The notes under the pieces were generated by a model. That model saw nothing but the letters and a program-made list of their open reading frames with translations, was not told where the DNA came from and did not search any database. A program made the position numbers and the translations under genes. A DNA stretch of 36,016 nucleotides from Luteitalea sp. (GTDB taxonomy: Bacteria; Acidobacteriota; Vicinamibacteria; Vicinamibacterales; Vicinamibacteraceae): assembly GCA_009377605.1 (NCBI GenBank), contig WHTT01000066.1:1-36016 (forward strand). The letters are read 5' to 3'. Below are positions 5,143-10,492 of this stretch, piece after piece (position 1 is the first letter of the stretch; each line of letters opens with the position of its first letter).

Positions 5143-6038
5143 TCAGGCGGCAACGCCGCGTGCCAGTTTCTCCCAGAGATCGCGTTCGCGCTGGTGGGGA
5201 TCGGCAGCCAGAGTGCGTTCTTCTTCGGTCAGGTCGAGAAGAAACCGGAAGCCGCGCGCACAATCGGCGGTGATTCTGTCCTTGTCTATCGTGACCGTCC
5301 GGCGCACAAGCTGGCCCAGGTCGTTCCAATCGAAGTCACGGCCATCCTCAAGTTTCCGCAGCAGGCGCTCGGGATCGAAACTGTCCCGCGCCTGTCAGAG
5401 CTTGAGCACGACAAGCCTGCGCACGAGCGGCTGATCGAGCGGTCTTGTTGCGAACATCCCGAGGTCGTAGATATCACGCGCCTTGCTGCGCTGATAGCAG
5501 GCGCGAATCTTTTCGGCGAGGACTTCAGGAAGGCTGAGACAGACGACCTCGGCCGGTGCGAACGGCAAATGGCCGAAGTAGCTCTGTTCAACCTGCGCGC
5601 GCCGTTCGACGGCCAGCGTTGGCGTTTCGCGGCGGCTGATCTGTGCTTGATCTCGCTGCCCGCGGCATTCCAGTCGTGGAGGTAGGCGGCGTTGACGCCC
5701 CAGGACAGGCCGTCCTGCGTCTCGTAGTAGCCCTCATCGGGGATCGAGAACTGAATGCCGTGAAACGGGGGCTCGAATGCCTCCATCATCGCGAGGATGA
5801 TGTCTTCGTGGTCGTGCTCCTGGACTCCTGTGAAATCCAGATCTGTCGAGAATCTGCCCTGGCTGCCGACGAACATCTTCCGCAGGCACGTTCCGCCCTT
5901 GAAGGCGAGCCGGGCGAGAATCCCGCGCTCGGACAGGAGCTGCAGGAGGGAGGTCAGGATGATCTCTTTCTCCGCGATCATGATGTCGCGAAGCCCGGAT
6001 TCCATGGCGTAGCGCTGGACCTGCGGGCGTGTGAGCAT
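5143..6038 (-). pseudogene. abiEii: AbiEii nucleotidyltransferase toxin, broken by frameshift and stop
   Basis: Toxin component of an AbiE-type toxin-antitoxin system. The N-terminal half reads cleanly: ILARLAFKGGTCLRKMFVG (nucleotidyltransferase KGGT-type motif) then GRFSTDLDFTGV with the DxD acidic pair. Near 5650 the frame slips; adding one G to the GGG run there restores continuity into SYFGHLPFAPAEV, LPEVLAEKIRACYQRSKARD (the ExxxxKxxAxxxRxxxRD-like C-terminal motif) and IYDLGMFATRPL. A second defect is an in-frame TGA at 5395-5397 where the family would have Trp (LKL*QARDSFDPERLLRKL), after which the frame is open to TGA 5143-5145. Corrected length is 298 residues, normal for the family. 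The frameshift may be a read error, but the stop is a substitution. Its start lies five bases after the abiEi stop. Confidence 0.85.
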
Positions 6039-6042
6039 TCGT

Positions 6043-6909
6043 CTAGCGATCCTTCCTGATCGTCTTCCGCTGTCCCAATCCCGCGCTGCCGCGCAGTTCC
6101 TCCGCGCTCACATTGACGAACAGCCGCCAGGTCTCGTCGAAGCCGATCGCGTGCTGCGCGCGCGCGCGCGCCGGATCTGGCCCGAGCCACGTCTTGCGCG
6201 TGCGCGTCGAGACATCGAGCAGGTGCGCGCGCACGTTCTGCGGCACGTCAGCCTTGACGTGATCGAGCAGCCAGCCGACACGGTGCGGCAAGGGGCTTGA
6301 GGCGAACCGGTCGACATAGCTGGCCGCCTTCGTCCAGTCGAACCGGCGGCTGGCGTTCGCGAATATCGCGGTGGCCTCGCCGATGCCACCGGCGAGCTCG
6401 GGATGGTCGACGCAATCAAGGGCTGTCTTTTCGCGGTCGGACATCATGACCTCTTGGCCGAGCACGTCGGCGGGCTTGAAGCCAAAGAACTTCTTGGCCG
6501 TTTGATTGACGATGCGCACGCGCGCCTCTCCGACGCTCCTGTTGCGCAGCTTTGAGGGGGTCACCAGGAAAATGACGTTGCGATGCTGTGTCGTCAGACC
6601 GTAATGCGAGGCGGCCGTGCCGAAGCCGATGTAGTAAGGGTCTGCGACGCGGCTTGCGAGCGCGAGCAGATTACTGTCGCCGAGCGCGTCGGGACCCTGC
6701 TCGGGGGGAACGAGCAGGTACTTGCCCCAGGTCGCGCGCTCCAGCCAGCCCTTTTTCCGTAAGCCGTCGATTACCGCATCCGCGGCTTTGGGGGTGCTTC
6801 CGAGGAGGTGGATGATCTCCTCGCGTGTGGTGTCGCGGCGGCCTTGCTCGGTCAGAGCAAGGACGACGCGGCTTTCCTGTGGCGACAGTGACCGGGTTGG
6901 GACTCCCAT
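6043..6909 (-). CDS. abiEi: AbiEi antitoxin/transcriptional regulator
   Basis: A 288-residue AbiEi-family protein. The N-terminal winged-helix part (residues ~10-60, TTREEIIHLLGSTPKAADAV then LRKKGWLERATWGKYLLVP) is followed by the long antitoxin domain with YYIGFGTAASHYGLTTQ, VNQTAKKFFGF and the MSDREKTALDCVDHPELAGG block typical of the family. It lies directly upstream of abiEii. AbiEi proteins neutralise AbiEii and repress the operon by binding paired inverted repeats. Two strong inverted repeats precede this gene, the first ending only eight bases from the ATG, which fits autoregulation. There is no evident ribosome site before ATG 6909. The protein appears intact even though its toxin is broken as read. 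Confidence 0.92.
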   Translation of the reverse strand: MGVPTRSLSPQESRVVLALTEQGRRDTTREEIIHLLGSTPKAADAVIDGLRKKGWLERATWGKYLLVPPEQGPDALGDSNLLALASRVADPYYIGFGTAASHYGLTTQHRNVIFLVTPSKLRNRSVGEARVRIVNQTAKKFFGFKPADVLGQEVMMSDREKTALDCVDHPELAGGIGEATAIFANASRRFDWTKAASYVDRFASSPLPHRVGWLLDHVKADVPQNVRAHLLDVSTRTRKTWLGPDPARARAQHAIGFDETWRLFVNVSAEELRGSAGLGQRKTIRKDR

Positions 6910-6916
6910 TGCAATG

Positions 6917-6957
6917 TGACCATCAAAACCCCCTTTAACAGAGGGTTTTGATGGTCA
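6917..6957 (-). promoter_or_regulatory. AbiEi operator IR1 (15-bp perfect arms)
   Basis: TGACCATCAAAACCC (6917-6931) is the exact reverse complement of GGGTTTTGATGGTCA (6943-6957), with an 11-base spacer. The site abuts the abiEi start codon. It is too close to the start to be a terminator of another gene and matches the known paired-repeat operators of AbiEi regulators. Confidence 0.75.
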
Positions 6958-7007
6958 TTATGCACGATCCAGGAATGCCCTCGAAACAGCCTGGTCGATT
7001 TATTCGA

Positions 7008-7034
7008 CAAAACCCTCTGAATTGGAGGGTTTTG
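7008..7034 (-). promoter_or_regulatory. AbiEi operator IR2
   Basis: CAAAACCCTC (7008-7017) and GAGGGTTTTG (7025-7034) are perfect arms around a 7-base spacer and share the CAAAACCC half-site with IR1. The centre-to-centre distance to IR1 is about 84 bases, so the two sites could cooperate or loop. Confidence 0.7.
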
Positions 7035-7493
7035 ACGGTTAGTTTGCTATCTGATGGGCGTGGTTCGACGACGGTGATCCCTGAACCTGAGCCGTTTGGC
7101 GGCCGGACTGCCACTGTTGTGAAGAACGCTGATGCTGCCTCCATCCAAGTCGAGGAGAAGGGCGGGCCCGTCGTCGCCGTCCTTGCCGGGCACGGCGATC
7201 TCGAGATGCAGGCGAACTGCAGCCCAGACGCTTTGGTCTTCCTGAGCGCCCTCTCGATCTCAGGCTTTCGGATGATTCGCGTGCCACGAGTCTGGGACAG
7301 CCTCGAGCGTCGCACGGCGGAGGCGGACTCGCACCGAGAGTTCAGTCAGTTGGCGCGAACATTCAAGACGGCTCCCCTCGAAGGTTGTTCGCGATTCACG
7401 CTTGGCCCTCGCCGACTCATCCAGGCTTGTTGCGGAGAAACGGCGACCGTTGAGCAATTTCGCTCGCCTCCGAAAGCGTGTCCGCGCGAATGA
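7032..7493 (+). CDS. Possible hypothetical protein, weakly supported
   Basis: A plus-strand frame from TTG 7032 reads with mostly G or C at third positions and protein-like composition (VIPEPEPFGGRTATVV, KGGPVVAVLAGHGDLEM, LSALSISGFRMIRV). No family is recognised. Against it: the start lies inside operator IR2, no ribosome site is clear, and the last 77 bases overlap the YCII gene on the other strand, so the real end, if it exists, may be a truncation. It divides two well-supported minus-strand genes and might be a remnant. Confidence 0.22.
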   Translation: MTVSLLSDGRGSTTVIPEPEPFGGRTATVVKNADAASIQVEEKGGPVVAVLAGHGDLEMQANCSPDALVFLSALSISGFRMIRVPRVWDSLERRTAEADSHREFSQLARTFKTAPLEGCSRFTLGPRRLIQACCGETATVEQFRSPPKACPRE

Positions 7494-7739
7494 CGGAGAA
7501 GCCACCAATCAACTCCTTCACTTCCGCCATCGCTGCATCGGTCTTGACCTTGGTGCCGTTCTTCGTCAGCACCACGCCCTCAGGTGTCAGTGCCGCTCCG
7601 GGGTTGCGCAGGTTCCCCGACGCCTCAAGCGCCTTGAACCACGCTCCCACTCCTGCATCACGGTCTGAATCTCCTCGGGAGAGCGGTTCTCCATCCAGGC
7701 TGGATCCCCGCCTTGATAGATCAATAGGAAGTCCGCCAT
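7417..7739 (-). CDS. YCII-related (DGPF-type) protein, one frameshift
   Basis: Small cytosolic YCII-domain protein, a family often encoded beside sigma factors or stand-alone and of uncertain enzymatic role. ATG 7739 has a ribosome site (GGAGG, 8 bases upstream) and begins MADFLLIYQGGDPAWM, the classic YCII start. At ~7650 the frame slips: EIQTVMQEW continues as GAWFKALEASGNLRNPGAAL in another frame. One G added to the GGG run restores a 107-residue protein ending in QRSPFLRNKPG. The full length fits the family. The single defect in a homopolymer suggests a read error rather than a dead gene. Confidence 0.8.
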
Positions 7740-7826: not shown

Positions 7827-8384
7827 TTAGGTTCTGCGGCGATAGCGGAGGAAGACGACGCCGTTGCTGAAGCGGCGCTCGTTCAGCAACTCGAGCTCGA
7901 CGCGGGTGTCGTGGGGGAGGTACGACGTGCCACCACCTACGGCGATGGGATTGACGAACAGGTGGTACTCGTCGACCAGTCCGGCCTTGATGGCGTGGGC
8001 CGCGAGGTTGGGACCGCCCACGCTGATGTCGCGTTCGGCAGCCGCCTTCATCCGCCGGACAGCATCAGGGTGGAAGACCGTTTCGATCCGCGTCCTGGCG
8101 CTGGACGCGGTCGCCAGCGTGGTGGAGTACACGACCTTGTCGGTTGTCCGCCAGATCTCGGCGAAGTCCTTGGTGACGGGCGGCTGGTCGGCGACGTCCA
8201 GGCTCTCCCAGGCGACCAGCACCTCGTACATCCGGCGGCCCAAAAGGAAGGTGCCGACCGACCGTGTGAGGTCGTTGATGACGGTGTGCACCTCCGTGTC
8301 CGGCACACTCCAGTCAAACTTGCCGGCCCGGTCGGCGATGTAGCCGTCGAGCGATACGATCCCCGAGTAGATCAACTTGGCCAT
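7827..8384 (-). CDS. Dihydrofolate-reductase-fold/RibD C-terminal family reductase
   Basis: A 185-residue protein of the RibD C-terminal/YyaP-YwjB type, predicted NAD(P)H-dependent reductase with unknown substrate. Visible motifs are KLIYSGIVSLDGYIAD at the start, FLLGRRMYEVLVAWE, then DKVVYSTTLAT, RDISVGGPNLAAHAIKAGLV with the nucleotide-binding GGP, and VDEYHLFVNPIAVGGGTSYL. All major blocks are present and the length is normal. The ATG at 8384 has GAGGTAATCAAAGC just upstream. It is followed after ~90 bases by the YCII gene on the same strand, a plausible loose operon. These proteins are often mobile in soil bacteria; no resistance role should be assumed. Confidence 0.9.
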   Translation of the reverse strand: MAKLIYSGIVSLDGYIADRAGKFDWSVPDTEVHTVINDLTRSVGTFLLGRRMYEVLVAWESLDVADQPPVTKDFAEIWRTTDKVVYSTTLATASSARTRIETVFHPDAVRRMKAAAERDISVGGPNLAAHAIKAGLVDEYHLFVNPIAVGGGTSYLPHDTRVELELLNERRFSNGVVFLRYRRRT

Positions 8385-9607: not shown

Positions 9608-9664
9608 ACTTAAGCTGCGTTGAGTGCCATTCGATAGCTCGTCAGTTTCCTCAGCGCGGCTTGG

Positions 9665-9930
9665 TGATGGCGACGATCGACAGGCTCAGCGCGAGCTGGA
9701 CCTCGCCCGGCCTCGAGGTCGAAGTCGCGAAGCTCCGCTGCCATGAACGGGTGGAGCGTCCGGAGCACCGCGCGTCCCGCGAGCAGATCGACGCCGCCAC
9801 GCCGCAGCTTGCGCGCGCTCGAGCCGGTCAGGACGAAGCGACGGCGCTCCTTCGATTCGATCAGCGCGTGGACGACATTGAGGAGCTCAGGAACACGCTG
9901 GACCTTGTCCAGCACAACCGTCGACGTCTT
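9665..9930 (-). pseudogene. Internal fragment of a DUF4143-type AAA ATPase
   Basis: Minus strand reads STVVLDKVQRVPELLNVVHA, then LIESKERRRFVLTGSSARKL, RRGGVDLLAGRAVLRTLHPF. This is the Walker B to sensor-I stretch of the large ATPase family with a C-terminal DUF4143 domain. The normal DExQ is DKVQ here, a changed catalytic Glu. The Walker A region is missing because the sequence switches at about 9930 to a Fic fragment on the opposite strand, and the C-terminal DUF4143 domain is also missing. This is a dead piece left by recombination. Confidence 0.8.
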
Positions 9931-9935
9931 GGGCG

Positions 9936-10492
9936 CCCCGCTGGCACACGTCCAGTTCGAGACCATTCACCGGTACCTCGACGGCAACGGGCGCATTGGG
10001 CGCCTTCTCATCACGCTCCTGCTCGAGCACTGGAAGCTGCTCTCCGCGCCGCTTCTCTACCTGAGCCTCTTCTTCAAGCGGCACCGGAACGAGTACTACC
10101 GACTGCTCGCCGACGTCCGGCGGCACGGCGACTGGGAGGCCTGGACGGACTTCTTCCTCGAGGGCGTGGCCACCATCGCGGACGACGCGGTAGCCACGGC
10201 CCGTGACGTCTTCGCGTCGGTGAATGCCGATCAACAGCGGCTGCTAGCGACGTCCGGCGCGTCGGTCGTCGTGGTCCGGCTCTTGCAGCAACTCCCGGTC
10301 CATCCCGTAGTTACTATCCCGGGCATCGTGAGGCTCTTGAAAACAACCAAGCCCACGGCAAGTAAGGCCGTTCAGCTTCTCGAGCGCCTCGGCGTCCTTG
10401 TCGAGACGAGCGGAAAGCAGCGCGATCGAACCTTCGCGTACAAGAAGTATCTGGAACGCCTTCGCGCGGGCACCGACCTCGAGGACCGATGA
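9936..10492 (+). pseudogene. Fic-family protein, N-terminally truncated
   Basis: The frame encodes the back half of a Fic (AMP-transferase-type) protein. HVQFETIHRYLDGNGRIGRL carries the HxFxDGNGRxGR catalytic loop; His, DGN and both Arg remain, but the usual HPF/HPY is HRY. Then come LLEHWKLLSAPLLYLSLFFK, YYRLLADVRRHGDWEAW and a C-terminal winged helix (TIPGIVRLLKTTKPTASKAV then LLERLGVLVE) typical of Fic proteins with a DNA-binding tail. The N-terminal ~180 residues of a normal ~370-residue member are absent and no start codon with a ribosome site precedes the catalytic loop. The junction with the ATPase fragment is at 9925-9940. Almost certainly not functional. Confidence 0.85.

Follow-up and report, generated by a model that had tools for sequence, protein, structure and literature searches.

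The abiEi antitoxin gene of this Luteitalea genome is preceded by two closely spaced inverted repeats, hereafter IR1 and IR2, and the locus raises the question of whether these repeats form the operator through which AbiEi represses its own operon and, with a broken abiEii toxin gene alongside, whether the antitoxin has been kept as a stand-alone regulator. The window analyzed is the whole stretch of 36,016 nucleotides, contig C66 of a genome of 6,786,431 bases in 382 contigs. The start-proximal dyad, IR1 (6917-6957), has two arms of 15 bp (6917-6931 and 6943-6957) that are complementary at 15 of 15 positions and are separated by an 11-nt spacer. Seven bases (6910-6916) lie between IR1 and the abiEi ATG (6907-6909, minus strand), the last base of the arm being the eighth upstream, as stated in the first-pass annotation, which had reported perfect 15-base arms ending eight bases from the start codon. 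The promoter-distal dyad, IR2 (7005-7037; like IR1 not assigned to a strand), has arms at 7005-7017 and 7025-7037 that are complementary at 12 of 13 positions. Its distance of about 84 bases and its common half-site, also claimed in that annotation, are borne out by a 27-nt core, CAAAACCC-N11-GGGTTTTG, which recurs in IR1 (6924-6950) and IR2 (7008-7034) with a start-to-start spacing of 84 bp.

Exact 15-bp arms with a spacer of 0-20 occur once in the window and in none of 200 dinucleotide shuffles; the three occurrences of 13-bp arms are all nested in IR1 (shuffle mean 0.05). The longest exact arm of IR2 is 10 bp, and the window has seven such arms (shuffle mean 2.2, maximum 8). Since a 10-bp arm alone is within chance expectation, the weight given to IR2 comes from the core it shares with IR1 and from its conservation, the dyad being kept in seven of eight relatives.

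The gene behind these repeats (6043-6909, minus strand) encodes a 288-residue antitoxin and putative autorepressor, recognized by Pfam, PADLOC and a structure model, and is a genuine AbiEi antitoxin of the COG5340 type with a winged helix at about residues 1-71 and the AbiEi C-terminal domain at about residues 75-219. The latter matches Pfam AbiEi_1 (PF09407; 30.8 bits, cut-off 22.2), a family to which no other protein of the genome is matched, and the protein scores 205.9 bits against the PADLOC AbiEi profile. An AlphaFold2 model (18 aligned sequences, mean pLDDT 82, pTM 0.68) gave two Foldseek matches with E values of at most 0.001, namely Rv2827c (1zel, 9.6e-8) and Streptococcus agalactiae AbiEi (6y8q, 8.3e-6). 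A second aligner matched model residues 75-219 to 6y8q (Z 13.9, rmsd 2.5, 135 aligned) and aligned 255 residues with 1zel (Z 12.1), on which the model cannot be superposed as a whole (rmsd 12.8); domain orientation may account for the misfit. The N-terminal winged helix is indicated by a predicted H-E-H-H-E-E succession at residues 10-66 and by matches to winged-helix regulators over residues 1-71. By sequence, its helix-turn-helix (HTH) matches are weak (best E 0.0063); when PDB sequences were searched with a profile, the better matches were weak ones to HTH regulators, and neither 1zel nor 6y8q was retrieved.

We then examined the distribution of the repeat, since the first-pass annotation had considered that a mobile palindrome, found in many unrelated intergenic regions, would speak against an operator. 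A dispersed element that landed by chance beside abiEi could leave two similar copies close together, as observed here. The exact 27-bp core is present in the whole genome only at IR1 and IR2, and no further place was found among its 6,786,431 bases with up to two mismatches; at three mismatches there are five other places, compared with three for the reversed control pattern. This absence of close copies excludes a dispersed mobile palindrome in this genome, and together with the nearly constant distance between palindrome and start codon across nine loci (see below) it leaves a chance landing with a negligible probability. Across a sample of 396 genomes of the phylum, the looser pattern CAAAACC-N13-GGTTTTG has exact matches in 11 genomes (reversed control, 4), and two exact matches within 100 bp of each other occur only in the genome of the window. 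A degenerate operator pattern applied to eight genomes matched 10 places when no more than one mismatch was allowed, all 10 at abiE promoters, and with exactly two mismatches 4 places at abiE and 12 elsewhere, the reversed control giving 9 matches with up to two mismatches; the IR1 of loci L008 and L054 escaped this pattern because of a 19-bp offset. A wider regulon was considered and rejected, given that the 12 matches outside abiE are at about the level of the control (9). No regulon beyond abiE is therefore visible, there being no other close match to the operator in the genome.

Searches with AbiEi retrieved seven relatives with a complete gene (L008, L049, L050, L051, L052, L053 and L010; about 63-86% identity), and an N-terminal abiEi fragment at a contig end (L089; 79% identity over 28 residues). 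With the window these make up nine operator loci. L054, whose upstream stretch is identical to that of L008, was counted once with it, and L056/L090 and L032 were left out of the count, lacking the abiEi N-terminus and hence a usable upstream region. A scan of viral contigs yielded no relative of AbiEi, and the plasmid search returned 50 records, all below 60% identity.

Eight of the nine loci carry two dyads, with half-sites near CRAAACMCC, flanking a promoter-like segment, the ninth (L050) having one hybrid dyad. The start-to-start offset of the half-sites is 18 bp in 16 of the 17 dyads and 19 bp in the other, and in every one of the nine loci the distance from the beginning of the left IR1 half-site to the likely start codon is 41-43 bases (the value of -40 given by the script for L010 is measured from a projected start one codon ahead of its ATG). 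Within the half-sites (n = 30, L089 left out) position 3 is always A and position 5 always C, while position 7 is C in 29. The dyads of L051 are close to perfect. In the comparison with the 86% relative, identity is 78-82% in the dyad cores but falls to 43% in the DNA between the dyads and to 35% upstream. The automatic dyad scan, which relied on mononucleotide shuffles and required seven of eight matching bases, missed the imperfect dyads of L010, which were read by hand. The dyads are spaced, start to start, by 84, 74, 73, 76, 77, 75 and 73 bp, and by 58 bp in L089. These spacings had hinted at whole helical turns, with the dyads phased on the same face of the DNA, an idea that was dropped in view of the 58 bp (5.5 turns) of L089. 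In L050 the single dyad (1444-1482) resembles the IR2 of other loci on its left and their IR1 on its right, the promoter-like segment being absent; it looks like the product of a recombination between two dyads that deleted the promoter.

Between the dyads, and separated from the IR1 core by exactly six bases, lies a hexamer that matches TATAAT at four or five of six positions in all eight two-dyad loci, at a position chosen by eye from the inter-dyad sequences. In the window the candidate -10 hexamer is CATAAT (6957-6962, minus strand), with TATATT in L051 and TATGAT in L089. A consensus scan found no sigma-70 promoter in the window, at this candidate included, and the -35 element of the window is indistinct. 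If the hexamers are indeed -10 boxes, transcription would begin roughly where the IR1 core has its edge, and a protein bound to IR1 would lie over the start site. The inverted repeats stand directly upstream of abiEi, and the segment that they enclose is its putative promoter. As to translation signals, no clear Shine-Dalgarno sequence could be discerned by eye in the stretch that leads from IR1 to the abiEi ATG, either in the window (6900-6960, minus strand) or in L008, and GAGA-type sequences, also noted by eye, lie between IR1 and the start in L049, L051 and L052.

The arrangement just described very probably represents a two-dyad operator of AbiEi autorepression, in which IR1 and IR2 provide four half-sites. 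The N-terminal winged helix of AbiEi would bind the half-site CRAAACMCC; bound to IR1, the protein would lie over the predicted start of transcription, which follows closely on the -10-like hexamer, and bound to IR2 it would occupy the -35 region or the DNA upstream of it. With both dyads occupied, RNA polymerase would be blocked and AbiEi would repress its own operon. What the sequences themselves show is the anatomy of the dyads, the conservation of their half-sites, geometry and position, their restriction to abiE promoters and the predicted fold of AbiEi; the binding, the promoter, the repression and any cooperation between the dyads are predictions of this model. The operator reading is based on phylogenetic footprinting, on the genome-wide specificity of the sites for abiE promoters, on their fixed placement with respect to the -10-like hexamer and on the DNA binding published for two AbiEi proteins, and on these grounds we consider the autoregulatory operator proposed in the first-pass annotation to be strongly supported.

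Dyads of this kind may also function as RNA, IR1 acting as an attenuator or translation-blocking stem in the 5'-UTR and IR2 as a terminator that insulates abiE from upstream transcription. IR1 is indeed terminator-like on both strands, the layout AAAACCC...GGGTTTT resembling a bidirectional terminator, and the predicted RNA folds are stable for IR1 (-30.7 kcal/mol, z -7.25) and IR2 (-17.6, z -6.27) of the window and for IR1 of L008 (-14.9, z -3.38). Moreover, the outer arms match each other within dyads at 56 of 102 positions (permutation mean 37.9), and the cores at 131 of 153 (permutation mean 126.6; 6.4% of permutations reach 131). The excess in the outer arms is, however, explained by locus, because half-sites of different dyads in the same locus match equally well. 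In the eight two-dyad loci (L050, with its one dyad, being left out), outer similarity is 3.19 of 6 within a dyad, 3.19 between dyads of the same locus and 2.00 between loci, the corresponding values for the core being 7.69 of 9, 7.75 and 7.46. Half-sites that resemble those of the other dyad as much as their own partner would be expected if all four answered to one protein, but not if they formed two separate hairpins. Furthermore, in 12 of the 17 dyads the core includes one or more positions where neither a Watson-Crick nor a G-U pair can form, the RNA fold of the L010 IR1 is no more stable than those of its shuffles (z -0.59) and IR2 lies upstream of the putative promoter. Hairpins are consequently an improbable explanation of the dyads, which are better interpreted as binding sites of a protein.

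Whether that protein is AbiEi itself can be judged from the distribution of the motif among AbiEi clades. Other winged-helix proteins bind similar dyads, and the array could belong to another regulator, for instance a global factor of the host, with AbiEi as a mere passenger. The confinement of sites with at most one mismatch to abiE promoters in eight genomes is unlike the behaviour of a global regulator, and the motif tracks the AbiEi clade across families. In this clade the region of the recognition helix reads KAAD-x-VI-xx-LR. Three homologues with 33-35% identity (L055, L012 and L013) differ in both respects, since they have YARYLAHRLV in this region and another dyad near the start codon, roughly GTTWGTA-xx-ATMCAAAC as read by eye, which was not seen in L011. 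It fits these observations that the specificity of the operator has changed along with the recognition helix, and binding by a different regulator is accordingly very unlikely, even more so than the hairpins. At the distant loci L013, L015, L019 and L037 we found a dyad pair reached by fewer than 5% of mononucleotide shuffles, and none of these pairs contains the CRAAACMCC motif.

The AbiEi operator that we propose has precedents in two characterized systems. In S. agalactiae, AbiEi binds inverted repeats in its own promoter and represses abiE (PMC3985639). The operator described there is a single dyad of 23-3-23 bp with 11-bp perfect ends, N27 and the half-site TGTTGCTTTTA (Dy 2014, PMC3985639), and its authors noted that other abiE loci, too, are preceded by repeats of this kind (PMC3985639). 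The locus studied here is comparable in having a winged-helix AbiEi upstream of AbiEii and inverted half-sites over the putative promoter, and in its proposed autorepression. It differs from the S. agalactiae operator in that the 23-3-23 arrangement is not found in the window, whose clade has two dyads with 27-bp cores, an 18-bp offset, CRAAACMCC half-sites and a promoter-like segment in between. In Mycobacterium tuberculosis, Rv2827c likewise binds inverted repeats in its own promoter and acts as a repressor (Beck 2020, PMC7319586). The 23-bp repeats of the Rv2827c-Rv2826c promoter form two pairs, all within 131 bp of the start codon, with a gap of 13 bp inside each pair and the pairs 4 bp apart (PMC7319586). 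Four half-sites in two inverted pairs lying within about 130 bp of the start codon and a modeled AbiEi fold matching that of Rv2827c bring the window close to this case, and similar binding may be expected; the half-sites of the window clade, on the other hand, are conserved stretches of 9 bp set 9 bp apart, in dyads spaced 58-84 bp start to start. Rv1044, also of the AbiEi family, was able to bind DNA, though not the region upstream of its own gene (PMC7319586), so that membership of the family does not guarantee autoregulation. Among other bacteria, altered expression of many other genes has been reported for an AbiEi mutant of Mesorhizobium huakuii (PMC8436566), which makes a role of AbiEi in trans conceivable, and autoregulation of AbiE was considered likely in Serratia (PMC7725324). 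No description of the present operator was found in the titles and abstract openings of the open papers searched. On the best reading of the sequences, the mechanism is one already known, and it is the geometry and the half-site sequence that are new.

The state of the toxin gene bears on whether AbiEi has become a stand-alone regulator. The abiEii remnant (5161-6038, minus strand) starts four bases beyond abiEi and matches the toxin in two frames (5586-6038 and 5161-5649). The frameshift that separates them falls between about 5586 and 5649, a lesion absent from the first-pass annotation, which had correctly reported an in-frame TGA (5395-5397). The AbiEii nucleotidyltransferase toxin of an AbiE type IV toxin-antitoxin operon is encoded directly downstream of abiEi; in the window its gene is in place, although broken, and it is complete in L008, L049, L052 and L090, where the contig begins inside abiEi. 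Of the eight loci in which abiEi is complete, three (L008, L049 and L052) also have a complete abiEii and five have a broken one, the window and four of the seven relatives (L050, L051, L053 and L010). In L050 it is broken by a frameshift, and in L051, L053 and L010, the last lying near a contig end, homology is lost after about 38, 29-43 and 50-65 residues, respectively. The reverse search with AbiEii, in 443 genomes (250 + 193) from the same groups as the AbiEi searches, showed, among matches of at least 60% identity, no instance of a decayed abiEi accompanied by a complete abiEii, one close match (G679) having its abiEi cut by the contig start. L085/L091 carry an abiEii remnant, and no abiEi was detected in the 3 kb extracted there; L032 has kept remnants of both genes. 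Loss of the toxin with retention of the antitoxin is therefore recurrent, in a count biased towards complete abiEi by the use of AbiEi as the main bait, and the antitoxin can decay too.

In the window the inactivation of abiEii looks recent, since its pieces still appear constrained when compared with L008, the relative of 86% identity (dN/dS about 0.12 and 0.17 for the pieces, 0.11 for abiEi). For most pairs of loci such estimates are weak evidence, dS being close to saturation or past it. The break may also be an assembly error. With a loss that looks so recent, the intact operator of the window says little about selection after the toxin was broken. The suggestion that AbiEi is kept as a stand-alone regulator consequently stands in part: it agrees with the five broken toxins out of eight loci and with the lack of the reverse situation among the AbiEii matches of at least 60%, but not with the apparently recent decay in the window, the absence of a second close operator match or the abiEi remnant of L032. 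That the toxin has repeatedly been lost while AbiEi and its autorepression were kept as a self-limiting, toxin-free module, perhaps directed against incoming AbiEii of mobile elements, is a speculative and rather unlikely extension.

The surroundings of the operon include, upstream of the operator, YCII-related and RibD_C-domain genes (7417-7650 and 7827-8384, both minus strand). Further along, an AAA_14 ATPase fragment (9610-9966, minus strand; 48 bits), apparently a remnant, is overlapped by the C-terminal part of a Fic protein (9743-10492, plus strand; PADLOC SoFic, 190.7 bits over residues 63-240), and the two remnants suggest a decaying mobile or defence region.

For the AbiE family, the comparison of nine loci adds an AbiEi operator, as predicted here, whose sequence and geometry are unlike those of the two characterized cases. 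Pairing each operator with the sequence of its recognition helix would make a DNA-recognition code of AbiEi testable, and the relatives with and without a working toxin form a natural series of AbiE loci in which selection on the antitoxin may be told apart from the mere order of decay.
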